Positions 3,985-24,186 of a DNA stretch of 24,291 bases are shown here, piece after piece (the stretch's first letter is position 1; every line of letters begins with the position of its first letter). The DNA comes from a virus. The stretch is taken from IMG/VR virus record IMGVR_UViG_3300044960_000820, positions 1 through 24,291 of that record; one strand, 5' to 3'. The notes under the pieces were generated by a model, which worked only from the letters and a program-made list of their open reading frames with translations, was not told the origin of the DNA and searched no databases. The position numbers were made by a program, and so were the translations under genes.

Positions 3985-5475
3985 TTACACCTGGGCTTTA
4001 AACGCGCCACGATAATCGCCGATCATCGCGCCGTACTCGTGACGGATCTTCCATTGGAGCTTGTCCGCGACGAACATCTGTCCGACGGTGGGCTGATCGG
4101 CGAGGAACATCTCCGGCTCTTCCTGGCCGTTGATGAAGCCGACGATCATGATATCGACTTCGTTCGGATCACGGAAAAGGCCCCAGTCGTTGACGTCGGT
4201 GAGCAGCGGATTCACCAAGATGCGTTCGTTGTTCGCGCCGAATATCTGATACATGTCGTTGGGCGTGAAATTGGCGTCGAGGTACTCCGCTTGATTGACC
4301 TTATATGCCGTCGCGCGCAGCTCCTGGGGCACGACCAGCAAGAGATTTTGCATCGAGCGATCGCTCAAGCCCAGGCGCTCATTAGAGCTGAGCTCGGTCA
4401 TCTTGGCGAGAACATCGACCGCGGACGAGAGACTGGCCGCCGACAGGGCGGTCGCTCCCAAATTGCCGTGACCTACGGTGAACCAAGCCGTGCCATCGCC
4501 GGTATAGGTCGCGTTGCTCACCCAGAAATTCCAAATATAGCGGGCGAAGGTGCGGCGCGCCGCGCGGCCCCAACCCTGCACTCGACGGGTCAAGCCGCGC
4601 AGATCGTCATTCATGATCGCCTTCCGCGTGATGGTCAGGAGATTGCCCTTTTGGAGCGGCGTGAAGCTGATCTTTTCTTCGCCCGGCTTGGTCGCCTCGA
4701 CGTAATCGGCGGTCTCTGGATCGACGGTCGAGAGATCGCCGAAATAGCCGACCCGCTCCGCTTCCTGGAGCTTAAAATTCTCCAGCGTCAGAATTGGCGG
4801 CGAAATAATCCTGCGCTCCCCGTACTCCGCCGCGGCATAGTCTTGCAAGAGGCGGCGATTCATCGAGGTGCCCAGCAAACTGGGGAAGTCGGCGGCGATA
4901 ATCGCTTCCTGCGATCGCAGCCTTTCGCGCGCAATGTAGCCGCGCACTTCGGAATCGCCCGTCACCGCGACATAGGCTTGGCGCAGCGAACGAAAAACCA
5001 GCCCGGGATCCCCCTCGGCCTTGACGCCGAGCATGCGGTCCATCGCGATCTGATGCTTATCGACTGCTTCCTGTCCGACTTCGACGCGCGTATCGCCGGC
5101 GCCGAGCACCAGGCCGCTGCGAGCCAATTGATCGAGCGTCTCTTGCTCGAGCGCCACCGCCTCATCCAACGCTTCGCGCGCGAACACTTTGCCGCCGAAC
5201 TGCTTTTCGATTTTCTTTTTGACCGGCTCCGGCAGCCGGATCTCGGCCAGTTTGCGCGTCAGATAAGCCTCGCATGAATCTTTGATCATCTGGTCGCGCA
5301 ATGCGCGGATTTCCTGCGCTTCCTGAGCGCTAAGGGTGCGCGCCGAGCTCGCATCGGATAGCGCCTCGGACAAGGCTTCGGCGGCGCGCTCGATGGTCGG
5401 ATGATCGCCCAACCGCGCGATCAGATCGTCGCGCTTGCATCGCTTGAGCAGCGCGAGAATGTCTTCTACTTTCAT
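3985..5475 (-). other. Possible nested scaffold-capsid product from an internal start
   Basis: Inside the protease-capsid fusion, codon 281 is an ATG at 5475. It is preceded by AAAGGAG at 5484-5490 with 8 bases of spacing, a better ribosome site than the one at the full-length start. Initiation here would give 496 aa with scaffold and capsid but no protease, which could raise the capsid-to-protease ratio. Nested starts of this kind are known for lambda C/Nu3 and Mu I/Z. This is an inference from the sequence; the site might also be fortuitous. Confidence 0.5.
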
Positions 5476-6315
5476 TTCCCCGTCTCCTTTGGCGACACTC
5501 TCGGTCGCCCGCAAAAATGCCCCGCCGGCTGCCGGCGCGGTGGCTAAATCGACGCTCTCTAATCCCAAAAACCGCATCACCCATACCAGGCCGCTGGGCA
5601 GCCGCGCGGCCTCTACGGGCGCATTGATCGAGACCCCATTGACATGACCCGCTCTCATCTGATCGACGAGCCAGTCGCGATACGTCTCATCGATCTCCGC
5701 CTCGGCGCGCGGCTCGTAGAATCCGGCGGATTCCGTCGCGCGAGGATTGATCAGCTTGCCGATGACCTTGCTCGCGCGGCCCTCATGGCCGAACACGCCA
5801 GGCAAGGACTCCACCGCGCGAAGCGGCGCGCCGTCCACGAAGCGAAGCAGCGTCTCGAGCGCTTTGCGAGTATATATCCAGGGCGGATTTTTCTTGTTCG
5901 GTCCTTCGCGTATGAGCCGCACCTCCCATCTCTTCCCCTTCGGCGCGAGCGCTTCGAGCGCTTCGGACACCGCGACGTATTGCTTTTCGACCTCGACCGG
6001 ATCGCCAAAGCTGTAGCCCTGATCGGAGATCGAGTAGGGAACGCGATAATATTTCCCGTCGCGCGCGACGATCAAATAATCCTCGAACACCCCCTCGCAC
6101 CAGGTGTTCGGTCTGTCCGCCTCGTTCACGGTCTCGTAATAGGCATCGCGCACCGCTTGCGCCCGCTCGTCCAATGACGCCTCTTCGCGCGCCGCCATGA
6201 TGCGGAGAATCTCCTTCTCGCGCCGAAGAGCCTCTTCCTCTGAGTCGAATTCCCCGAGGCGCTTCCGGCCGTCCTCGGAGTAGAGGACGTATTTGCCGTC
6301 TTCGATTTTGATCAT
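3985..6315 (-). CDS. Fused prohead protease, scaffold and major capsid protein
   Basis: This 776-aa protein combines three parts normally made separately. Residues 1-40 contain a GKYVLYSEDG stretch seen at the start of some phage head proteins. Residues about 125-270 look like a prohead serine protease: GHEGRASKVIGKL (His177), GHVNGVSINAPV (Ser229) and LESVDLATAPAAGG (Asp256 region). Residues 280-400 are charged and helical, typical of a scaffold (delta) domain. Residues 470-776 form a Mu-type capsid domain with SMNRRLLQDYA near 484, a GYFGDLSTVDPETADY stretch near 523 and LLLVVPQELRATAY near 660. Capsid assembly would then need self-cleavage. Its ATG overlaps the upstream TGA. Confidence 0.8.
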   Translation of the reverse strand: MIKIEDGKYVLYSEDGRKRLGEFDSEEEALRREKEILRIMAAREEASLDERAQAVRDAYYETVNEADRPNTWCEGVFEDYLIVARDGKYYRVPYSISDQGYSFGDPVEVEKQYVAVSEALEALAPKGKRWEVRLIREGPNKKNPPWIYTRKALETLLRFVDGAPLRAVESLPGVFGHEGRASKVIGKLINPRATESAGFYEPRAEAEIDETYRDWLVDQMRAGHVNGVSINAPVEAARLPSGLVWVMRFLGLESVDLATAPAAGGAFLRATESVAKGDGEMKVEDILALLKRCKRDDLIARLGDHPTIERAAEALSEALSDASSARTLSAQEAQEIRALRDQMIKDSCEAYLTRKLAEIRLPEPVKKKIEKQFGGKVFAREALDEAVALEQETLDQLARSGLVLGAGDTRVEVGQEAVDKHQIAMDRMLGVKAEGDPGLVFRSLRQAYVAVTGDSEVRGYIARERLRSQEAIIAADFPSLLGTSMNRRLLQDYAAAEYGERRIISPPILTLENFKLQEAERVGYFGDLSTVDPETADYVEATKPGEEKISFTPLQKGNLLTITRKAIMNDDLRGLTRRVQGWGRAARRTFARYIWNFWVSNATYTGDGTAWFTVGHGNLGATALSAASLSSAVDVLAKMTELSSNERLGLSDRSMQNLLLVVPQELRATAYKVNQAEYLDANFTPNDMYQIFGANNERILVNPLLTDVNDWGLFRDPNEVDIMIVGFINGQEEPEMFLADQPTVGQMFVADKLQWKIRHEYGAMIGDYRGAFKAQV

Positions 6316-14175: not shown

Positions 14176-15354
14176 TCACACCTCCATTTTAATCGTCTCG
14201 CCCCAGGGCGCGACCCGGTCGGTAGTCGATACCCAGAGCACTGGCGTTTCGGGCGCGCGATCGGGGAATGTCCCCTCCAGGTCGGTCAAATAGATCACGC
14301 ACGCTGGCATGAGACCCTCGCGATCGAGGCGCTTGAACACGGGGCGGAAATCAGTGCCGCCGCCGCCGCGCGGGGAAAGCGTGATGTCATCGCCGCGCTG
14401 GAATTCGTCCACGCGCTGGACCGCAGCATCGCAATAGATCACGTACAGCGCCTCCGGCGCGCAATCGTCCATGATCGCGGCGATCTCCGCGCCGAAGGCG
14501 TCGAGCTCGATTTGACCGATCGAGCCGCTCGTGTCGATCGCAACCACGAGCGGGGGCGTGGTCTCGGAGCGCAGCGCGGGGAGATAGAGCCCGCTCGGCA
14601 CAAAACGCGGATTGGGCATCTTCCATGAGTAATCCGCCGCTTGCTGAACGAAGCGGCGTAGCGCCGTACGCCAATCGACGTGCGATTTCTTGAGCTGGTC
14701 GACAAGTCGCTCTAGGGAGGCGGGAAGCTTCCCCTGCTGCTTCGCCTGTGCGGCGGCCTGTAAAGTGGCCACGCGCCATTCCTCTTCCTGCGCGGGGTCG
14801 TCGGGATCGGCATCTCGGACCTCTCCGCAGGCTGGCTCAGGGGCGCTCTCTCCGGATTCGCCCCCACCCTTGCTGTCACCCTCTTCGCCGCCAGCGCCGC
14901 TCTCCGCGCCGCCGCCGGCTCCGTCGCCGTCGCCTTGCTCTTGTTTCTGATCCTTTGAAGGCGGCGGCTCATAGAGTGTCGAGTAGATCTGCTCGACGGC
15001 GCGGCCAGGCTCTGCGTCCGTGAGTGTGCCAGGTGGGAGAGAAAATCCCGCCTCGGCGACGATCGATGAAACGCACATCTCGGACGCGCGAGACCACCGC
15101 TTGAGATCGCGTCCATCGCGACGCCAAGGGTGTCCGTTTGCTACTTGCATGATTTTGACCGCGAGCAGCGCCTCGACTTCGTCAAGCGAGAGCTGCTCAA
15201 CGGCGCTTGGATTGTATCCGAGGCGTCGGCCATCCACCCAAGCGGTCTTGCAGCTTGGATCGGCGACGGGATCGAGGCGAAGGGCGAGCGTCCCAAAAAA
15301 CGGCTGCTCAAGCACGAGATTAACTCGCGCTTGGACGATTTTCTTATGCTCCAT
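14176..15354 (-). CDS. vWA-domain protein (DUF2201-like), MoxR partner
   Basis: This 392-aa protein pairs with the AAA+ ATPase encoded just upstream. Residues 1-130 resemble the N-terminal part of DUF2201 (putative metallopeptidase) proteins, with GHPWRRDGRDLKRWSRA near residue 74 and AEAGFSLPPG near 100. The HExxH zinc motif usual there is not visible (KIMQVANGH instead). Residues 131-190 are an acidic, glycine-rich linker. Residues 195-392 form a vWA-like domain with a complete MIDAS: DTSGS (Asp274, Ser276, Ser278), Thr334 in GGGGTDF and Asp358 in YLTDLEG. It binds a metal and a protein partner. The start at 15354 has GGGAGG and overlaps the ATPase gene by 11 bases. Confidence 0.8.
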   Translation of the reverse strand: MEHKKIVQARVNLVLEQPFFGTLALRLDPVADPSCKTAWVDGRRLGYNPSAVEQLSLDEVEALLAVKIMQVANGHPWRRDGRDLKRWSRASEMCVSSIVAEAGFSLPPGTLTDAEPGRAVEQIYSTLYEPPPSKDQKQEQGDGDGAGGGAESGAGGEEGDSKGGGESGESAPEPACGEVRDADPDDPAQEEEWRVATLQAAAQAKQQGKLPASLERLVDQLKKSHVDWRTALRRFVQQAADYSWKMPNPRFVPSGLYLPALRSETTPPLVVAIDTSGSIGQIELDAFGAEIAAIMDDCAPEALYVIYCDAAVQRVDEFQRGDDITLSPRGGGGTDFRPVFKRLDREGLMPACVIYLTDLEGTFPDRAPETPVLWVSTTDRVAPWGETIKMEV

Positions 15355-16381
15355 CGTCCACCTCCCCGCTGATAAGCTTGCCGATGTCGCTACTCAGGAG
15401 CTGGAGGAAGGGTGGCGAATGAATCAGTTTCGCGTTACGCCGCACGGCGTCGCGGAGGAGCAGCACGGCAAATTCCCCGCGCCCCGCATCGTTGAGGCGC
15501 ATCGCATACTTCGCGACGCGAGCGAAGTTCGCCTCCGTCGCGCGCGCGGCCAGACCCGTTGCGACCGCGTAGAGAGCTGCTGGCTGAGAGGGGAGCGGCG
15601 CGGAGTCGGGATCGAGCAGAATCGCGTCAAGAGACGGTAGCTCTCGATAGATTTGGAGGAAGGCGACGAACTCCGCCGCCGGGCCGTCGCCGACCGCGCC
15701 CTGGAGCGCGGCAAGCTCGATCGCAGGGGATAGTTTGAGCGCGATGATCTTCCCCGCCGCCGCCCAGGTGCGCGGGCAGGGGGAATTGACAAGATCTGCG
15801 GTGGGATTGAATTGGTGCAGCAGCTCGGGCCGAAAACGGACAAACGCAACGAGCTCGGCGGGTTGATTGGTGCGCAAAGCCCAGTTGCACCAATCGTCCA
15901 GATTCGCCTCGACATGGACAATCGAGACGAACCGCGACTTCACCGACTCCAGGATACCGGAGACGCCGGCGCGATCGGTGCGCCGATTGGTCGCCGCCAC
16001 GAAGGTCACGCACTCCGGGAGCGCATGACCGTTGACGCGGCGCGCGAGCAGGAGCTGCATATAGCTCGCCTGCACGGCGGGGGTCGCCTGGCCCAGGTCG
16101 TCGAGAAACCAGACGGTCGGTTGCTCCGCGTGCAGCGCACGCGAGAGATCACCGAATGGGAGAAAGGTGGCGCTTTCGCCATCCTTCCCGACCCACGGCA
16201 GTCCCTTCGCATCGGTCGGGTCGCTCACGACCGGATGCGAGACGATAAGATCCGCGCCCGAGGCCTGGGCGGCCTGGGCGACGAGATCGGACTTGCCGAC
16301 GCCCGGCGCTCCGACGAGGAGCACCGGGAGGCGGGCATTGATGGTAGACGTGAGCAGCGTCGAGACATCACGCGGCCTCAT
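15344..16381 (-). CDS. MoxR-type AAA+ ATPase
   Basis: This 345-aa protein is an AAA+ ATPase of the MoxR/AAA_5 kind, chaperone-like remodelling enzymes usually paired with vWA proteins. GAPGVGKS (residues 24-31) is Walker A, VWFLDDL (90-96) is Walker B, TFVAATNR (126-133) is sensor 1, and SVKSRF (146-151) probably holds the arginine finger. The C-terminal third is helical. ATG at 16381 has a perfect AGGAGG site, so the longer frame to 16429 is not needed. It overlaps both neighbours by 11-14 bases. The ATPase should act on whatever its vWA partner binds. No substrate is evident. Confidence 0.85.
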   Translation of the reverse strand: MRPRDVSTLLTSTINARLPVLLVGAPGVGKSDLVAQAAQASGADLIVSHPVVSDPTDAKGLPWVGKDGESATFLPFGDLSRALHAEQPTVWFLDDLGQATPAVQASYMQLLLARRVNGHALPECVTFVAATNRRTDRAGVSGILESVKSRFVSIVHVEANLDDWCNWALRTNQPAELVAFVRFRPELLHQFNPTADLVNSPCPRTWAAAGKIIALKLSPAIELAALQGAVGDGPAAEFVAFLQIYRELPSLDAILLDPDSAPLPSQPAALYAVATGLAARATEANFARVAKYAMRLNDAGRGEFAVLLLRDAVRRNAKLIHSPPFLQLLSSDIGKLISGEVDDGA

Positions 16382-16769
16382 CACGCACCTCCTGGCGGAT
16401 CTTTTCCGCCATGCGGTCGAGCCGCGCATGGGTCAGCTCGAGCGCAGGGTCGAGCCGCTCGACGGCAGCGATCACGTCGATGAGGCGAGGGAGCACATCT
16501 CGGTGCTTCTCCAGCGCGCGGAGTGCGCGCCGGACTCCCGCTTCACTCACGCCGTACAGGCGCGCGACATGCGGGAGAGTACGGCAGTGGACCATGAGGG
16601 AGAACGGCCATGCGGCGGAGGGTCTCCTGATGCGCGAGCAGCAATCCTGCCGCTCGCGGTCGGAAGGATAGAATCTTTTTTTCTTGTCGAAGTCGCCGTC
16701 CGGATGGCGGCTTCGGCTTTGGCGCGCGAGGTATTCGCGCGCGGCGTCAATCTCTCTCTGGATCTGCAT
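16368..16769 (-). CDS. Helix-turn-helix-like protein starting the MoxR-vWA operon
   Basis: This 133-aa protein is mostly helical and basic. LPHVARLYGVSEAGVRRALRA near residue 75 has the helix-turn-helix pattern (A-x-x-x-G-V-S then a second helix), so DNA binding is plausible. The C-terminal part, DVIAAVERLDPALELTHARLD, is a long helix. ATG at 16769 follows AAAGGAG; an upstream in-frame ATG at 16835 would add 22 residues read through a hairpin region. It is the first gene downstream of the leftward promoter at 16845-16873, and its end overlaps the ATPase start. Possibly an operon regulator. Confidence 0.65.
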   Translation of the reverse strand: MQIQREIDAAREYLARQSRSRHPDGDFDKKKRFYPSDRERQDCCSRIRRPSAAWPFSLMVHCRTLPHVARLYGVSEAGVRRALRALEKHRDVLPRLIDVIAAVERLDPALELTHARLDRMAEKIRQEVRDEAA

Positions 16770-17073: not shown

Positions 17074-17439
17074 TTATCGCCGATCGCCGCCGTAGATTTT
17101 ATCCAGGCGGCGCCAGGCCCGATCATCCTTGAGCCATGCTGGCAACGCGCCGCCGTTGCGTTCCTTGATCTCGTTTTCCAGCGCGATAAATCGATTGCGA
17201 ATATCGCCGCCTCGTCTTCGATGCGGCGCGAGCAATTTGTTCAGCTCGTTTCCATCTCTCACGAATAGCGCGCGAGACAGCGCCTTTTCATAGTCCGCGT
17301 CCATCCGATAATAGTTCGAGAGAATCTCGCTCATCTCCGCCAGTGCGCGTTGGCGATAGAGTCTTTCTTCGCGCTCCCGATGCAGCCAGGCGCCGACAAT
17401 GGCGAGAGACAGAGAGATAATGATGATCAGAGTTTTCAT
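17074..17439 (-). CDS. Membrane-anchored helical protein next to the repressor
   Basis: This 121-aa protein has one N-terminal membrane helix (TLIIIISLSLAIVGAWL, residues 3-19). A long charged helical region with many arginines and glutamates follows, ending in ALPAWLKDDRAWRRLDKIYGG. ATG at 17439 overlaps the repressor TGA (ATGA junction), so it is expressed with the repressor and probably in the lysogen. Membrane proteins encoded next to repressors often alter the host in lysogeny, for example by superinfection exclusion. The bulk of the protein would be outside or inside depending on orientation, which I cannot settle. No known family. Confidence 0.65.
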   Translation of the reverse strand: MKTLIIIISLSLAIVGAWLHREREERLYRQRALAEMSEILSNYYRMDADYEKALSRALFVRDGNELNKLLAPHRRRGGDIRNRFIALENEIKERNGGALPAWLKDDRAWRRLDKIYGGDRR

Positions 17440-17858
17440 CGCGATTCTCCTTTTTTGTTTTCTTCGCGCACAATACGACGAAAAATCACGACGCTTTTCA
17501 GCAGCGCATCTATTATGTCATCCGGCGCCTCTCGCGCGAGCTCCTTGATTAAATGCACGAGCTTGAGCCTGTCGGACTTTCCGTAATTCTCCGGAGCCTC
17601 GGCTACTTCTAAAATTATTTTTCCTTCGGCGCTGCCGGTAACGAGCCAATCGATGGTCTGGCCGAAAATCGCCGCGAGAGAGGCTGCAATCGACAATGAT
17701 AGGCCTTGGCCAGACTCTAGTTTGTTGACTGCGCTCTTGTCGGAGTATCCGAGCATCATCGACAGATCCTCCTGCGTCCAGCCTCGCCGTTGCCTCTCCG
17801 AGCGAATCCTCGATCCGATCTCACATAGGTCGAGGTGGCTAATTTTTCTACTTGACAC
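17436..17858 (-). CDS. XRE-family repressor (lysogeny regulator)
   Basis: This 140-aa protein has a clear HTH_3 domain: EIGSRIRSERQRRGWTQEDLS, then MLGYSDKSAVNKLESGQ and SLSIAASLAAIFGQTIDWL (residues 13-71). A helical C-terminal part is suited to dimerisation. It probably holds down the rightward early genes, as the Mu c and lambda-type repressors do. The start is a GTG at 17858 and no ribosome site is visible, so initiation may be weak. Its first codons overlap the -35 of the early promoter (17852-17857), so the two transcripts begin against each other. It is divergent from the Cro/Ner-like gene, as in a classical switch. Confidence 0.8.
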   Translation of the reverse strand: MSSRKISHLDLCEIGSRIRSERQRRGWTQEDLSMMLGYSDKSAVNKLESGQGLSLSIAASLAAIFGQTIDWLVTGSAEGKIILEVAEAPENYGKSDRLKLVHLIKELAREAPDDIIDALLKSVVIFRRIVREENKKGESR

Positions 17859-18565: not shown

Positions 18566-18752
18566 CCTGGTTGAGGCATTCGTCGTCCGCGTACGACGGA
18601 TGCTCAGAGAGATCGACGACGTCGACGATCTCGTTGCGGCATTGCGCCTCGAGATCGAGCGTGAATTTCCCGCGCGGAGGGCGGCGAGATCGCCGTTTGC
18701 TCGCCGGGCGCGCCAACGCCCTCGCCCTCCGCGCGCGGGAGGGTCTCGATGA
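18558..18752 (+). CDS. Small early protein with repeat-derived C-terminus
   Basis: This 64-aa protein starts at ATG 18558, overlapping the previous gene by 8 bases, with no ribosome site of its own. The N-terminal 37 residues (MNDLVEAFVVRVRRML, then DDVDDLVAALRLEIE) look like a regular acidic helix. The C-terminal part is arginine- and proline-rich and is read through an inverted-repeat element at 18668-18741. It ends in an ATGA overlap with the transposase gene, whose GGGAGGG ribosome site is also part of that element. The C-terminus may be an insertion rather than original protein. Confidence 0.5.
   Translation: MNDLVEAFVVRVRRMLREIDDVDDLVAALRLEIEREFPARRAARSPFARRARQRPRPPRAGGSR
18668..18741. 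repeat. Imperfect inverted repeat before the transposase gene
   Basis: The left arm TCCCGCGCGGAGGGCG (18668-18683) pairs with 18724-18741, whose reverse complement has the same sequence plus two extra bases. The space between holds a smaller palindrome (GGCGAGATCGCC region). The right arm overlaps the transposase ribosome site, so folding could hide it. Confidence 0.65.
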
Positions 18753-20521
18753 GAGATATCGATTCCGCCGGTGGCGTGGCCGGCGGATATATCGGCGGCG
18801 ACCCCAGCGGCGCAACCTCCTCGCCGCCAGGCGCATCGCCTGCGCCGCTCGATAAATCCCCCTTCCTCGCTGCGCCCGCAGCGGGGAAGGGGGATGATGA
18901 AATAGCGCGGGCTAACGCTATCGCCGACACGCTCAGTCATTATCCAATCTCCGAGGCGGCCAAACGCTTAGGCTGGTCGGAGATCACCACGCGGCGAAAA
19001 CTGCGCGCTATGCAACGTGATGGCATCGCTGCGCTATTGCGGAGAGCGCGCGCCGATCGCGGCTGTCCGCGCGTCGCCGACGATGAAACGATCAGGCGCG
19101 TGCAGCGCGAATATCTCCATCCCCATCGCCCAACTGCGAGGAGTATATATCGACGGCTCGCGACCGACTGCCATCGCAGCGGCGTCGAGGCGCCGAGCTA
19201 CTCCTTCGTCTTGCGCGCCATCCGCCGCATCGATCCCGATCTGATCGCTCGCTATCGATACGGCGAACGGAGATACGACGATCGCTACGCCTACGTCACG
19301 CTGCGGCGCAAACCGGCGCGACCGCGTCAATGGTGCGACGCCGATCATCATCCGTGCGATCACGCGGTCGTTTTCGCCGACGGCTCGATCGGTCGGCCCT
19401 GGCTGACGGCGATTCAGGATATCGCGACCAACGAGATTCTCGGTATCCATCTGACGCGCGGAAAGCCGGTCGGCAAGGGCACCTATCCCGGCGCACAAGC
19501 GATCGGGTTATGCATTCGGAACGCGATTCTGCGCAAAAGCGCCGAGTGGCCGAGCTACGGTCTCTTCGATCATCTCTATGCCGATCTCGGACGGGACTTC
19601 CGCTCTGAGTATGTGCGCGCCGTCTGCCGCGATCTCGGCATCGCGATCGTGCACACCCGCGGCTACCACGGCAAATCGAAGCCGATCGAGCGTTGGTTCG
19701 GCGTCATGGAAGACGCGCTCCGCGCCCTGCCCGGCTATGTCGGCCGCCGACCAGAGGATAACCCCCAGCGACAAAATCTGGTGCCTCGCCCCTTCAATCG
19801 CGACGATCTCCTCACGATCGAGCAGTTCGAACAAAAGCTGATCGACTGGATCGTTTGCGATTTCCATCATGCGCCATCCAGCGCGCTTGAGGGGTTATCG
19901 CCGCTCGAGGCCTTGCGCGCGCACGTCGATAGCGGTTTTGTCGCGCGCGAGGTGCGCGATGAACGCGCTCTGGACCTGTTGCTCATGCGCAAAGCGAATA
20001 AACGCGTGCGCAACGCCGGCGTGCAACATTTCGGCCGCTGGTACTTCGCGCCCGAGCTGTTGTCAATAATCGGCCGGCAGGTACAGGTCGCTTGGGATCC
20101 GGCGCGGGTGGGCGAGCTGGTGATCTATCTCGATAATCGCTTTCTCTGCACAGCACGCAATCGGGAGCTGGTCGATTATGGCGCGAGCGAGGAGACGCTG
20201 CGACGGGAGCGCGAGCTTAAGCGCCAGCAGCGCCAGGAACTGAGGCGGCGCTATGAAGAGCTAATCCGACAGCGCCAATATCCCAGCGAGCTTGCTAGGG
20301 CGAGAGCAGAAGAGGAAGAGAGCCGCGAGAAAAGACAAATCGCTGTCGGCGCCGAGGCGCCGGCCGCGACAGCTCTATTGCCCAAATATGCGCGCGCGAT
20401 CAAGGCGCTCGATCGGCCGCCGGTTCGGCCGGCGCGAGCGGCGCCGCGGCGCATCGACGACACGCCGGCCACGGAGGAAATGTTCCACCGCGTCGTCAAT
20501 CCCTGGCTGGAGGACGAATGA
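18749..20521 (+). CDS. Mu-type DDE transposase (MuA-like)
   Basis: This 590-aa protein is the transposase, homologous in layout to MuA. Residues 55-120 look like a DNA-binding helix-turn-helix (SEAAKRLGWSEITTRRKLRAMQRDG). The catalytic core shows an Asp near 197-199 (QWCDADHH), Asp279 (YADLGRDF) and Glu314 (KPIERWFG), the DDE triad of the RNase H-like fold. The rest is a beta-barrel and helical region typical of Mu C-terminal domains, with charged helices after residue 480 suitable for MuB contact. It cuts and joins phage ends to target DNA. ATG 18749 follows GGGAGGG. Residues 36-49 come from a palindromic element. Confidence 0.9.
   Translation: MRDIDSAGGVAGGYIGGDPSGATSSPPGASPAPLDKSPFLAAPAAGKGDDEIARANAIADTLSHYPISEAAKRLGWSEITTRRKLRAMQRDGIAALLRRARADRGCPRVADDETIRRVQREYLHPHRPTARSIYRRLATDCHRSGVEAPSYSFVLRAIRRIDPDLIARYRYGERRYDDRYAYVTLRRKPARPRQWCDADHHPCDHAVVFADGSIGRPWLTAIQDIATNEILGIHLTRGKPVGKGTYPGAQAIGLCIRNAILRKSAEWPSYGLFDHLYADLGRDFRSEYVRAVCRDLGIAIVHTRGYHGKSKPIERWFGVMEDALRALPGYVGRRPEDNPQRQNLVPRPFNRDDLLTIEQFEQKLIDWIVCDFHHAPSSALEGLSPLEALRAHVDSGFVAREVRDERALDLLLMRKANKRVRNAGVQHFGRWYFAPELLSIIGRQVQVAWDPARVGELVIYLDNRFLCTARNRELVDYGASEETLRRERELKRQQRQELRRRYEELIRQRQYPSELARARAEEEESREKRQIAVGAEAPAATALLPKYARAIKALDRPPVRPARAAPRRIDDTPATEEMFHRVVNPWLEDE
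18856..18895. repeat. 19-bp palindromic element inside the transposase gene
   Basis: Arms 18856-18874 and 18877-18895 pair over 19 bases with a single T-G mismatch and a two-base loop. The element falls in frame and encodes residues 36-49 (KSPFLAAPAAGKGD). The composition (CCCCCTTCC then GGAAGGGGG) recalls dispersed palindromic repeats of bacterial chromosomes that insert in frame. Confidence 0.85.
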
Positions 20522-20658: not shown

Positions 20659-20671
20659 GGAGGTGCTTAAA

Positions 20672-21709
20672 ATGGTGGCGGATGTTGCGCACATTGAAGA
20701 TCGCGTCGAAACCATTACGGAAAAAAAACGCGTCGAGAACGCCCGCTCATGGATCGAGGGGTGGATCAAGGAAAATCGCCTGACCTACACCGCGGCGGCG
20801 CGCCAGATCGGTCTCGGCGACGCTGCGCGCACTCCGGTGGCGCGATTCGTCGAGCGGAGACATGAGGGCGATCCGACCCGTCTTGTCCTCGCAATCGAAC
20901 AGTTTCGCGCGACGATCGAGGGGCCGGAAGGCGTCTCGGAGATCATCGGCTTTCGCGAGACTCGCTGCGCGCGGCTAATATGGTCCGCGGCGCACGACGC
21001 GCGCGACAATCACAAGATGGCCGCAGTGATCGGTTATACCGGTTGCGGCAAGACCGAAGCGTTGAAGCAATTCCAACGTCGCACCTATCGAGACAATAAG
21101 CCGCCGGTGCGCGTCGTCACCGCAAATGTATTGATCAATGCGCCGTTTCTCGCGCGCAAGCTCGCGCTCGAAATGGGCTTGGTCGAGCGCGGCGGGGAAC
21201 CGGCGATGTGCCTGGAGCTGGTCAATCGACGACTGCGCGCGCACCCGGAGTTCTGGATCGTGGACGAAGCTAATTTCCTCAAGGAAAGCTGTCTCCACGT
21301 GCTACGCAATATCCACGACGTAACCGGCACGGGCATCCTGCTCGCAGGCACGCCGAGCTTCATCGCGCTGGTCGCGAATCGATCCGGCGGGACGACTGCT
21401 CGCGACGATGATCGTGAGATCGAACGCGGGCCCGATGGACCGCTCGCGCTTTTCGCCGATCGGATTTTTTCCACGGTCTTGCCCGGTATTACCGAGGATG
21501 AAATTACCGAGATCGCCGAATCGGTGCTGAATTGCGAGCTGACTGACGCGGCGCTTGCCAAGCTTGTCATCGTCGTGAATCGCAATATGAGACTGCTCAC
21601 GCGCATGATGCTCCAGCTTCGTGAATTTCGGCGCCGAGCGGGCACGCGCAAAGTCGATGATAAAATGATCGATGCGGCATGGATTAAATTGACCCATGTC
21701 GGACCATAG
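20672..21709 (+). CDS. MuB-like AAA ATPase, target DNA activator
   Basis: This 345-aa protein resembles MuB, which binds target DNA in the ATP form and stimulates the transposase. An N-terminal helical region (residues 20-60, with WIKENRLTYTAAARQIG) recalls the MuB DNA-binding helix-turn-helix. Walker A is GYTGCGKT (121-128), Walker B is FWIVDEAN (194-201), and LLAGTP near 230 resembles sensor 1. The C-terminal helical part fits the MuB C-domain. ATG at 20672 has AAGGAGG at 8 bases; the GTG at 20663 lies within the ribosome site region and is less likely. It follows the transposase, as in Mu. Confidence 0.88.
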   Translation: MVADVAHIEDRVETITEKKRVENARSWIEGWIKENRLTYTAAARQIGLGDAARTPVARFVERRHEGDPTRLVLAIEQFRATIEGPEGVSEIIGFRETRCARLIWSAAHDARDNHKMAAVIGYTGCGKTEALKQFQRRTYRDNKPPVRVVTANVLINAPFLARKLALEMGLVERGGEPAMCLELVNRRLRAHPEFWIVDEANFLKESCLHVLRNIHDVTGTGILLAGTPSFIALVANRSGGTTARDDDREIERGPDGPLALFADRIFSTVLPGITEDEITEIAESVLNCELTDAALAKLVIVVNRNMRLLTRMMLQLREFRRRAGTRKVDDKMIDAAWIKLTHVGP

Positions 21710-21723
21710 CTCAGGAGGAACAA

Positions 21724-21927
21724 ATGAGACCGATTCTCACTCGCGACGAAAACGGATCGATCGTCAAACATTGGACGCTCGAGGCCGCCGAGGCGGCGGA
21801 CGCCGAGCGTCGCAAGCGCTACGATGAGCAAATCCGCGCGCTCCTGACTGCGCGGCGCCGCTCGCGCCTGGCCGCGCTGATCGAAGCGGCGCGGCGCCTT
21901 TTCCGCCGGACGCGGAGGCCGATCTAA
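21724..21927 (+). CDS. Small basic early protein
   Basis: This 67-aa protein starts at ATG 21724 with GGAGG upstream. An acidic-basic start (MRPILTRDENGSIVKHWTLEAAEAADAERR is split here into MRPILTRDENG and the helix after it) leads to a long arginine-rich helix ending RRLFRRTRRPI. The strong basic C-terminus suggests nucleic acid binding or membrane contact. I do not recognise a family. Confidence 0.6.
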   Translation: MRPILTRDENGSIVKHWTLEAAEAADAERRKRYDEQIRALLTARRRSRLAALIEAARRLFRRTRRPI

Positions 21928-21932
21928 CGGAT

Positions 21933-22475
21933 ATGAGACAGGACGGACCTCACCGGGCGAAGCGACTTGGCGCGTATCCGCTGTGCGCGCGCTGCAAGAC
22001 GCGAGAAGCGATCAGCTATCGGCCGGGCGCTCTCTGCGAGCCGTGCAAAAGCCTCGTGTATATGCGCGCGAGAGCGGACGTGACCAAGGCGACGCAAATC
22101 GCCAAACGCCTCTATCTCGCCGATCGCGCGCGATATCGGCCGATCTTCGAATTCATGAACTCGACGATAAAAAAATCGCGCAGGGCCGATCTGGCGCTGC
22201 GATGCGTCGAGCAGCTCGAGGAGCGCGAGGCGCGCGGCGCGCCGGTGGCGGACGTAAGGGCCTATCTCGCCGGCACTCTTCGCCGCCTCCTCGGCGCCGA
22301 GGAAGCGGTCGCGCTGAGACGAGAGCGCGGCGGAGAGAATTTTTTGGCGGAATTCACCTCAAAGATCGTGGAGGCGATCGAAAATGCCGATCGTAGTAAA
22401 AGTACTGGGCGATCTCGATGTGCTCGCGGCCAGCAGCGTGCGCTATTTGGTCGAGCGTCTCGCTCGGTCAAATAG
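21933..22475 (+). CDS. Zinc-ribbon protein overlapping the STAS gene
   Basis: This 180-aa protein opens with CARCK and CEPCK (C-x2-C, 14 residues, C-x2-C), a zinc ribbon, then a long helical basic region. The last 30 residues overlap the next gene by 92 bases in another frame; they are serine- and arginine-rich and look like read-through, so the functional protein may end near residue 150. ATG at 21933 has only a weak ribosome site. Possible DNA- or RNA-binding protein. No recognised family. Confidence 0.55.
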   Translation: MRQDGPHRAKRLGAYPLCARCKTREAISYRPGALCEPCKSLVYMRARADVTKATQIAKRLYLADRARYRPIFEFMNSTIKKSRRADLALRCVEQLEEREARGAPVADVRAYLAGTLRRLLGAEEAVALRRERGGENFLAEFTSKIVEAIENADRSKSTGRSRCARGQQRALFGRASRSVK

Positions 22476-22713
22476 TCGCATCGTGATCGATATGGGAGCG
22501 GTCGATTGGATCGATCCGCTCGCGATCGGCGTCGTGCTCGCGGCCAAGGCCGCCGTCGAGGCGGGCGGCGGCGATCTGCGCATCGCGCGAATGACGCCAT
22601 TCGTGCGCGCGATTTTGACGAGGTACGGCGCTGACGAGATTTTCGAATGTTACGACAGCGTCGAGGACGCCTGCGATAGTTTTGGAGGATTAGACGATGG
22701 CGCGCGCTGTTGA
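22384..22713 (+). CDS. STAS-domain protein (anti-sigma antagonist-like)
   Basis: This 109-aa protein has the full STAS fold pattern: VKVLGDLDVLAASSVRYLVERL, then IVIDMGAVDWIDPLAIGVVLAAKAAVEAGG and a strand LRIARM, ending YDSVEDACDSF. STAS proteins such as SpoIIAA bind anti-sigma or partner kinases. The usual phosphorylatable DSSG motif is replaced by DPLA (IDPLAIG), so serine phosphorylation there is unlikely. GGAGG is 9 bases before the ATG. STAS proteins are unusual in phages; a partner kinase gene is not visible here. Its function in the early operon is unknown. Confidence 0.75.
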   Translation: MPIVVKVLGDLDVLAASSVRYLVERLARSNSRIVIDMGAVDWIDPLAIGVVLAAKAAVEAGGGDLRIARMTPFVRAILTRYGADEIFECYDSVEDACDSFGGLDDGARC

Positions 22714-23026
22714 GACCGTGGTGGTCAAAACGATAGTCAGAAATATTACGGAAAAAGGATTTTGGATCGGCGACGGCGGCCCGCGATGGGGCCACGATCG
22801 TAATATATTCGTCGCGCGCAGTCAGATTGTCGATGCCGATTGCGATCTCGACGACGTGACGATCGGCGAGGAAATCGAAATCGAGATACCCGCCTGGCTG
22901 GCAAGGAGGTTCGAAAATGAAACAGATAACAATCGACGTAACGGACAAGGAGTCCGCCGACGAAGCATTGGCGACGATCTCAGAGATGATGGATGGGATC
23001 GCTGTCGAGGAGGCAATCGCAAATAG
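22697..23026 (+). CDS. Small beta-rich early protein overlapping Gam
   Basis: This 109-aa protein starts at ATG 22697, preceded by GGAGG, and overlaps the STAS gene by 17 bases. Residues 5-70 suggest a small beta barrel (VVVKTIVRNITEKGFWIG, IFVARSQIVDADC, GEEIEIEIPAWLARR). The last 37 residues overlap the Gam gene by 110 bases; they are arginine-, aspartate- and glycine-rich and look like read-through rather than selected protein. An OB-like nucleic acid-binding role is a weak guess. Confidence 0.55.
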   Translation: MARAVETVVVKTIVRNITEKGFWIGDGGPRWGHDRNIFVARSQIVDADCDLDDVTIGEEIEIEIPAWLARRFENETDNNRRNGQGVRRRSIGDDLRDDGWDRCRGGNRK

Positions 23027-23402
23027 AGAGATAGAAGATATCCGAGAGCGACTGATTAAGTCCACGAGCGAATATCGCGAGATCATCGCCGCCTGCGAGC
23101 GCGCGCTTCAGGACTGGGCCAAGATCGCGCGGAGGGAATGGCCGGCGAAATCTTGCGAGCTGAACCACGGCGTAGTCGGCTTTCGCTTGCCGAAGGCCGC
23201 GATAAAGCTTCTGGTCGCCGTGGAGACCGCGATCGAGCGCCTGCGCGCGCGCAGGATGACGAGCTGCATCCGCGTCAAGGAAGAGCTGGACAAAGAAGCC
23301 CTCGCCGCCTACGAGGATGAGGTGATCGAGGCGGTCGGCTGCAAGCGCAAGCAAGGCCGCGAAAAATTTTATTATGAGATTAAACGCGAAGAAGTGCGCT
23401 AA
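22917..23402 (+). CDS. gam: Gam-like host-nuclease inhibitor
   Basis: This 161-aa protein looks like the Mu Gam family, which binds double-strand DNA ends as a dimer and protects them from host exonucleases, much as Ku does. It has a long N-terminal helix, ELNHGVVGFRLPKAAIKL near residue 80 (matching the family's G-x-V-x-F-R-x-P turn), and a long C-terminal helix ending EKFYYEIKREEVR. ATG at 22917 has AAGGAGG with 7 bases of spacing. It follows the transposase and MuB genes as in Mu. The TAATG junction couples it to the next gene. Confidence 0.82.
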   Translation: MKQITIDVTDKESADEALATISEMMDGIAVEEAIANREIEDIRERLIKSTSEYREIIAACERALQDWAKIARREWPAKSCELNHGVVGFRLPKAAIKLLVAVETAIERLRARRMTSCIRVKEELDKEALAAYEDEVIEAVGCKRKQGREKFYYEIKREEVR

Positions 23403-23752
23403 TGGACGATCGAGAAATGAGCGCGCTCGAAAAATCGATCTGGGAATTTTTGCGCCAGCACTTCGCCGGCATCGAGCGAGCGACGCCGCGCGTCACGATT
23501 CTCGCGCGATATAATTTGATCGCTCACTCCCAGATCGGCGATCGCGATTTTCGTGACATCGTCTCTCGGCTGGTAACTGTGTATAAAAAGCCGATCTGCA
23601 CGACTCCCCATCGCGGTTATTACGTCGCACGGACGGAGCGGGAAAAAACCGAGGCGCTCAATTATCTCGATTCGATACTGAGCGAGATCGCAGACCGTCG
23701 TCGCGCTCTCGCCGATACCGATCCGCTCGAGCGCCAGGAGAGCTTGTTTTGA
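23402..23752 (+). CDS. Winged-helix-like early protein with C-terminal clamp-type motif
   Basis: This 116-aa protein has helices at residues 5-20 and 45-60, with RDFRDIVSRLVTVYKKPICTTPHRGYYVA fitting a helix followed by a wing. Similar small proteins stand between Gam and GemA in Mu-like phages. The last five residues, QESLF, match the beta-clamp binding pattern Q-x-x-L-F, so it may contact the host DNA polymerase clamp. Its start overlaps the Gam stop as TAATG with a weak ribosome site. DNA binding is inferred from the fold only. Confidence 0.6.
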   Translation: MDDREMSALEKSIWEFLRQHFAGIERATPRVTILARYNLIAHSQIGDRDFRDIVSRLVTVYKKPICTTPHRGYYVARTEREKTEALNYLDSILSEIADRRRALADTDPLERQESLF

Positions 23753-24186
23753 TCTCGCGGCAAAAAATTAAACTCTTGCATCTGGCGAAACGAGAGCTTG
23801 GGTGGAGCGATGATCTATATCGCCAGGTGTTGCGCGATCATGGCGGCGTGGCATCATCGCTCGATTTGGATGATGAAGGATTCCGCCGGGTAATCGATCA
23901 TGCGAAGGCATTGGGATTTTGGGTTCAACGCAGACGAAAACTGGAGACGTTTCGGGACGCCTCCGATCTGCCAACCGTTGCTCAGCTTAAAATAATCGAG
24001 CACCTCCGTCATGATCTATGCGTTTATGTGCCGGGCCTGCGCCACGCCAATTTTTGGCGCGGATTCCTGGTCAAGCGTCTCGGCGTGCCTGCGCTTGGTC
24101 CTCAGACGCGTGCTCAAGCCAATCGCGTGATCGAAGCGCTTAAGCAACGCTTGGGTCGCGCTATGCGCGCGCAGTCGCACATCTAG
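23749..24186 (+). CDS. gemA: GemA / Mu gp16-like regulator (DUF1018 type)
   Basis: This 145-aa protein resembles Mu gp16/GemA. It has an N-terminal helix with Q-x-x-KLLHLAKRELGWSDDLYRQVL near residue 6, SSLDLDDEGFRRVIDHAKALGF in the middle, and FWRGFLVKRLGVPALGPQTR near 105. The family affects host gene expression and DNA supercoiling in Mu. The start is TTG at 23749, overlapping the previous stop, with AGGAG at the right distance, so this TTG is credible. It follows Gam and the winged-helix gene, in Mu-like order. Confidence 0.82.
   Translation: MISRQKIKLLHLAKRELGWSDDLYRQVLRDHGGVASSLDLDDEGFRRVIDHAKALGFWVQRRRKLETFRDASDLPTVAQLKIIEHLRHDLCVYVPGLRHANFWRGFLVKRLGVPALGPQTRAQANRVIEALKQRLGRAMRAQSHI

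Follow-up and report, generated by a model that had tools for sequence, protein, structure and literature searches.

The gene at 22384-22713 (+ strand) of the window, by which we mean the whole stretch of DNA analysed here (24,291 bases, a complete IMG/VR virus record that is linear and possibly a fragment), encodes a STAS-only protein of 109 aa. The gene belongs to the early operon of a Mu-like phage, and where the phosphorylation loop D-S-x-G would be expected its product reads I-D-P-L-A-I-G. Its counterparts in two sister Mu-like elements show strong sequence kinship to a chromosomal STAS family located in the dcw cluster, and the window protein, which the tree moderately joins to this family and whose HMM scores are about equal for the two families compared, may share that kinship. 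Judged from the alignments, the missing phosphoserine is the mark of this cellular family and no phage invention. We tentatively prefer, as a possibility only, the explanation that the phage protein is a mimic, or else a competitor, of the STAS that its host encodes in the dcw cluster, and place it ahead of the hijacking of a sigma pathway.

With genes for MuA, MuB, Gam and GemA in order, the window is a Mu-like transposable phage. Its early operon on the + strand comprises a MuA-like transposase (18749-20521; phrog_310, E 1e-76; Mu-transpos_C, E 3.3e-13), a MuB-like AAA ATPase (20663-21709; phrog_296, E 5.3e-30), a small ORF of 67 aa without a family in Pfam or PHROGs (21724-21927), an ORF with two CxxC pairs (21933-22475), the STAS gene, another small ORF (22697-23026), a Mu Gam-like DNA end-protection protein (22917-23402; Pfam Phage_Mu_Gam, E 9.6e-28), a phrog_2113 protein (23402-23752; E 3e-11) and a GemA-like protein (23749-24186; Pfam GemA, E 1.3e-13). 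An HTH repressor-like gene (17436-17858, - strand; Pfam HTH_3, E 1.1e-10) is divergent from this operon, and the head and tail genes are on the - strand. The STAS gene overlaps both of its neighbours, the CxxC ORF by 92 bases at its start and the following small ORF by 17 bases at its end, as is common within operons. Its place between MuB and Gam agrees with the earlier note, in which it was taken for an early phage gene.

The - strand of the window holds some further features. A MoxR-like AAA ATPase (phrog_1297) adjoins a DUF2201 metallopeptidase/VWA protein (phrog_1314) at 14176-16429; phrog_1314 is labelled as an HNH endonuclease in PHROGs, yet the window protein matches Pfam DUF2201 with an E of 2.8e-45. 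In addition, a 776-aa ORF at 3985-6315 combines a head-protease-like part with the major capsid protein in a single fusion.

The STAS ORF has an ATG start, with GGAGG ahead of it at 22370-22374, and its assignment is supported by Pfam (PF01740, E 1.4e-14; 54.2 bits against a curated cut-off of 22.6), by the structural model and by STAS matches in the PDB; the gene had thus been correctly placed and described, including its altered loop. The closest sequences with a solved structure belong to two anti-sigma antagonists, TM1442 (1sbo, E 1.4e-5) and SpoIIAA (1th8, E 3.6e-4). An AlphaFold2 model built from four aligned relatives reached a mean pLDDT of 89 and a pTM of 0.81, and its best Foldseek match was 1vc1 (E 7.2e-7). 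VIA-align gave a Z of 15.2 to 1vc1 (TM1442; 96 residues, rmsd 1.3) and of 14.6 to SpoIIAA (1thn), with RsbS and SulP STAS domains also among the top structural matches, so the protein does model as STAS, as the earlier note had required. The G-D-L-D motif of partner-switching STAS proteins is present. The curated NCBIfam scores were missed for both ant_ant_sig (48.1 against 53.45 bits) and spoIIAA (36.3 against 114.75), and PHROGs offers no STAS family that fits it, the top match having an E of 0.53.

Both direct reading and alignment place the substituted loop at 22510-22530 (+ strand, residues 43-49). Compared with D-S-x-G, residues 44-47 read D-P-L-A, in which Asp is retained while Ser is replaced by Pro and Gly by Ala. 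Because the loop holds neither Ser nor Thr, phosphorylation of a loop serine in the manner of SpoIIAA is impossible, as had been anticipated. The window copy is the only one with a hydroxyl at neither loop place, since the sister phage proteins, with the loops I-Q-P-M-T-M-G and I-A-P-M-T-L-G, have Pro for Ser but keep a Thr two residues on.

These sister proteins come from Centralia_MAG_52, an uncultured bacterium. The only relative of the window MuB among the named genome contigs (59% identity) is on a contig of this genome, L002, on which MuA, MuB, STAS (P0009; Pfam STAS, E 3.6e-12) and Gam follow one another as they do in the window; a second contig (G001:C21, with loci L012 and L016) encodes MuA, MuB, STAS (P0012), Gam and GemA. 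Identity between the window and the sister elements is 53% for MuA and 59% for MuB, and 28-32% for STAS. That the three STAS genes represent one phage gene is better argued from their shared operon place together with the relatedness of MuA and MuB. The sister STAS genes have diverged at 39% of their synonymous sites and at 15% of the nonsynonymous ones (dN/dS 0.30), a ratio by which the pair evolves like a real protein. L002 and L016, both from one draft genome, are mosaics, with blocks of 73-96% DNA identity, about 84% in the STAS region, and MuB proteins that are far apart. The proteins encoded after STAS look alike by eye (IEIPAWLARRF at 22697-23026 of the window, IRIPRWIAERL at L002:9042-9257), although they were not linked by tblastn at E 0.05. 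In a further relative with MuA and MuB (G014:C208, a 5-kb contig), no STAS gene was found in the 2.3 kb after MuB. Relatives of MuB were found in two of the 35 genomes of the order to which Centralia_MAG_52 belongs and in none of the rest of the class (2 of 148 in total), and in the phylum sample only the Centralia genome itself, one of 395, had one. The Centralia phage contigs could be misbinned.

In the same Centralia genome, a chromosomal STAS gene lies just upstream of rsmH, and its product shares 37% identity with the window protein and 44% with the sister phage proteins, whereas the RsbR- and RsbS-like proteins of this genome reach at most 24 bits with the window protein. Searching 148 genomes of the class with a four-row alignment, we found a dcw-linked STAS in 33 of the 35 genomes of the order at E ≤ 2e-44, the next matches being at 1e-15. 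Six further genomes with a more distant dcw-linked STAS were added from phylum samples (about 390-395 genomes of the larger phylum, with part of the first-look candidates scored). The gene order mraZ-STAS-rsmH, on one strand, is present at all 36 chromosomal loci considered, which are made up of 29 of the 32 loci listed from other genomes of the order, the Centralia locus (G001) and the six of the second group. By contrast, neither mraZ nor rsmH was found at any of the 22 STAS loci that served as controls, which came from the same sample of the phylum. As mraZ is upstream at 36 of 36 loci, a replacement of mraZ by the dcw-linked STAS was rejected. A STAS gene in this position (L018:3277-3636, - strand; L031-L065) was not described in the literature searched, which mostly excluded subscription journals, and none of the papers listed there joined STAS with dcw, mraZ, rsmH or mraW.

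None of the dcw-linked proteins from the 36 loci has a D-S-x-G loop; at this place, 30 proteins of the order carry N-Y-L-S-I-G, five others N-Y-L-T and the remaining one N-Y-L-C. The serine is present at the D-S-x-G place in all 11 RsbV-like control proteins, the set used for trees and HMMs; they derive from the 22 loci brought in by the A6 model itself, after leaving out 11 loci with a STAS that tblastn missed at E ≤ 1e-3 with the Centralia chromosomal query. Loss of the serine had been read in the earlier note as an escape of the phage from host kinases, but this was not supported: all 36 chromosomal relatives lack the serine too, and the sister phages retain a shifted Thr. Serine loss as a phage-specific trait was rejected on account of those 36 relatives. 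A missing phosphoserine alone does not imply a phage weapon against host kinases.

The kinship of the sister phage proteins to the dcw family is clear from HMM scores, with 96.2 bits (P0009) and 98.2 bits (P0012) for the dcw model against 59.0 and 67.2 bits for the RsbV-like model. The window protein scored 59.5 and 62.5 bits, respectively. Phages and dcw family fell on one side of the tree both with 52 rows (support 94/84) and with 27 rows (97/85), and support dropped to 90/57 once the seven motif columns were removed; the 27-row and motif-less trees used 13 of the 36 dcw rows and were made without RsbS and RsbR. The window protein sits on a long branch, and neither tree unites the three phage proteins in a single clade. 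The scores of a Fusobacterium STAS whose loop reads N-S-L-A-M-G were almost the same with the two models (81 and 80 bits). In Fusobacterium vincentii (L089:1041-1800), an RsbW-like ATPase gene directly precedes this STAS gene, and the loop, I-N-S-L-A-M-G, is possibly an intermediate between D-S-x-G and the loops of the phage and dcw proteins.

Scans of viral_contigs with STAS, MuA and MuB queries confirmed no relative, by a method that depends on short conserved peptides and may let distant ones escape. In 50,697 phage records, tblastn produced a single short match at E 0.5 (25% identity) for one of the two STAS proteins used as queries and nothing for the other, and plasmid records gave six ordinary STAS matches. 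A STAS gene in a Mu-like phage or prophage was likewise not described in the literature covered, most subscription journals lying outside it.

In the reading of the earlier note, the protein would be an anti-anti-sigma factor immune to phosphorylation, which by binding a host anti-sigma kinase would set a sigma factor free to the benefit of the phage. Its resemblance in fold to TM1442, RsbV and SpoIIAA, the retained G-D-L-D motif and the equal scores with RsbV-like proteins and the dcw family all speak for such a role, as do the RsbW-like ATPase gene beside the Fusobacterium STAS with its similar loop and the presence of an RsbR-RsbS-RsbT-like cluster in the Centralia genome. This cluster (L019:4834-6155, - strand, and just downstream) is stressosome-like, and after its RsbR-, RsbS- and RsbT-like genes come those of two response regulators and one histidine kinase; the alphaproteobacterial NepR stress system was rejected for the host lineage, as no NepR was found in the Centralia genome. 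However, the serine loss is common to the 36 chromosomal relatives, and the Pro and Ala of the loop might also spoil the contact with a kinase. An anti-sigma target was not supported by gene content: no HATPase_c_2, and hence no RsbW/SpoIIAB-like kinase beside the STAS gene, was found in the window, a record that may be a fragment, and no HATPase_c_2 match at E ≤ 1e-6 was found in 10 of the 35 genomes of the order (drafts that may miss genes, some of them small), nine of which are among the 33 with a dcw-linked STAS. We consider the sigma-pathway role rather unlikely.

An alternative of slightly lower standing, unlikely in our estimation, is that the protein is a regulator of the phage's own, whose partner would be a phage protein (MuB, the neighbouring CxxC product or an activator of late genes) and which would have no host target. 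The fixed place in the early operon of three phages, the overlaps with its neighbours and the lack of a known function for the neighbouring ORFs would all suit such a role, but the protein is kin to a cellular family and did not turn up in the search of 50,697 phage records, from which it follows that Mu-like phages in general manage without a STAS gene. PMC13373217 describes CapS and VapS, in which the STAS domain is switched through a conserved Ser/Thr; the GHKL kinase is activated by DNA damage, through single-stranded DNA, and its phosphorylation of CapS or VapS turns on immune operons or the VapC toxin. With the CapK-CapS and VapK-VapS-VapC systems of PMC13373217 as precedent, a phage protein without the serine could act as a counter-defence decoy for a STAS repressor or antitoxin of this type and keep kinase-triggered immune operons or VapC off. 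An early gene beside Gam suits the timing of a decoy, but the protein has no wHTH as in CapS, the kinship of the sister phage proteins points to the dcw family, and four STAS proteins tested gave no PADLOC match, with a 2023 library that predates PMC13373217; we regard this role as improbable. Least probable is a chance passenger gene without present function: the window protein is divergent from its sisters, yet the dN/dS of the sister pair, the intact ORF and the confident fold speak against it.

Competition with the dcw-linked STAS is favoured because no ATPase of the HATPase_c_2 type was found in the window or in those 10 genomes of the order. Under this competition model, the gene product would be an early STAS-only phage protein that binds a host protein and lacks the serine-phosphorylation switch. 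It would mimic, or compete with, the dcw-linked STAS for the putative partner of the latter during lytic growth, and host division, wall synthesis or expression of the dcw cluster would be altered as a result. The kinship of the window protein itself, the infection of a host with a dcw-linked STAS by the window phage, the competition for a partner and the effect on division or wall are all inferred. As the nearest bacterial look-alikes are in a cell-division cluster, the phage protein may target host division or the growth of the wall instead of a stress sigma factor. Mu itself has a protein, Kil, whose gene follows B and which is known to block cell division; this makes division a plausible aim for the region of the genome that holds the STAS gene. 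It is more doubtful whether Mu-like phages of this uncultured order took over a version of the host dcw-cluster STAS and use it early to seize the division and wall-building programme. If this is true, STAS proteins would control, or serve to control, division or wall growth beyond sigma factors, and the phage would show the lever. That almost all genomes of the order hold a STAS gene between mraZ and rsmH also hints at a regulator or accessory protein of the dcw cluster.

STAS proteins that act outside sigma control have precedents. Some STAS-only proteins act on non-sigma targets, among them RbaV, which affects the production of gene transfer agents (PMC8256260; see also PMC3999984). CapS and VapS resemble the phage protein as STAS proteins outside sigma control that are tied to phage biology, but differ, by their description in PMC13373217, in the wHTH of CapS and in the conserved Ser or Thr of both.

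Compared with RsbV and SpoIIAA, the window protein is alike in fold, size and G-D-x-D motif, and its score with the RsbV-like HMM equals that with the dcw family, but the phosphorylated Ser is absent and no RsbW/SpoIIAB-like gene lies beside it. Stressosome RsbS is also a STAS-only protein and a good structural match to the window model (6jhk, Z 14.9); however, the RsbS-like protein of Centralia scores 3.7 bits against the dcw-family model and retains D-S in its loop, and the phage gene has no RsbT beside it. The early region shares gene order and families with that of Mu-like phages (A, B ... gam ... gemA), but differs from 50,697 public phage records, in which no STAS gene was found (tblastn, E ≤ 1e-5 or near). 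As for the dcw-linked STAS proteins, their N-Y-L-S/T/C residues stand against D-P-L-A in the window protein, whose gene is in a phage operon and not between mraZ and rsmH; identity to the window protein, which lacks most of the C-terminal tail, is 33-37%. Nevertheless, dcw-linked and phage proteins are alike in being STAS-only, of about 120 aa, with neither Ser nor Gly at the D-S-x-G place, and the sister phage proteins share with the dcw-linked STAS the SFDxxWEG C-terminal tail and an identity of 41-44%.
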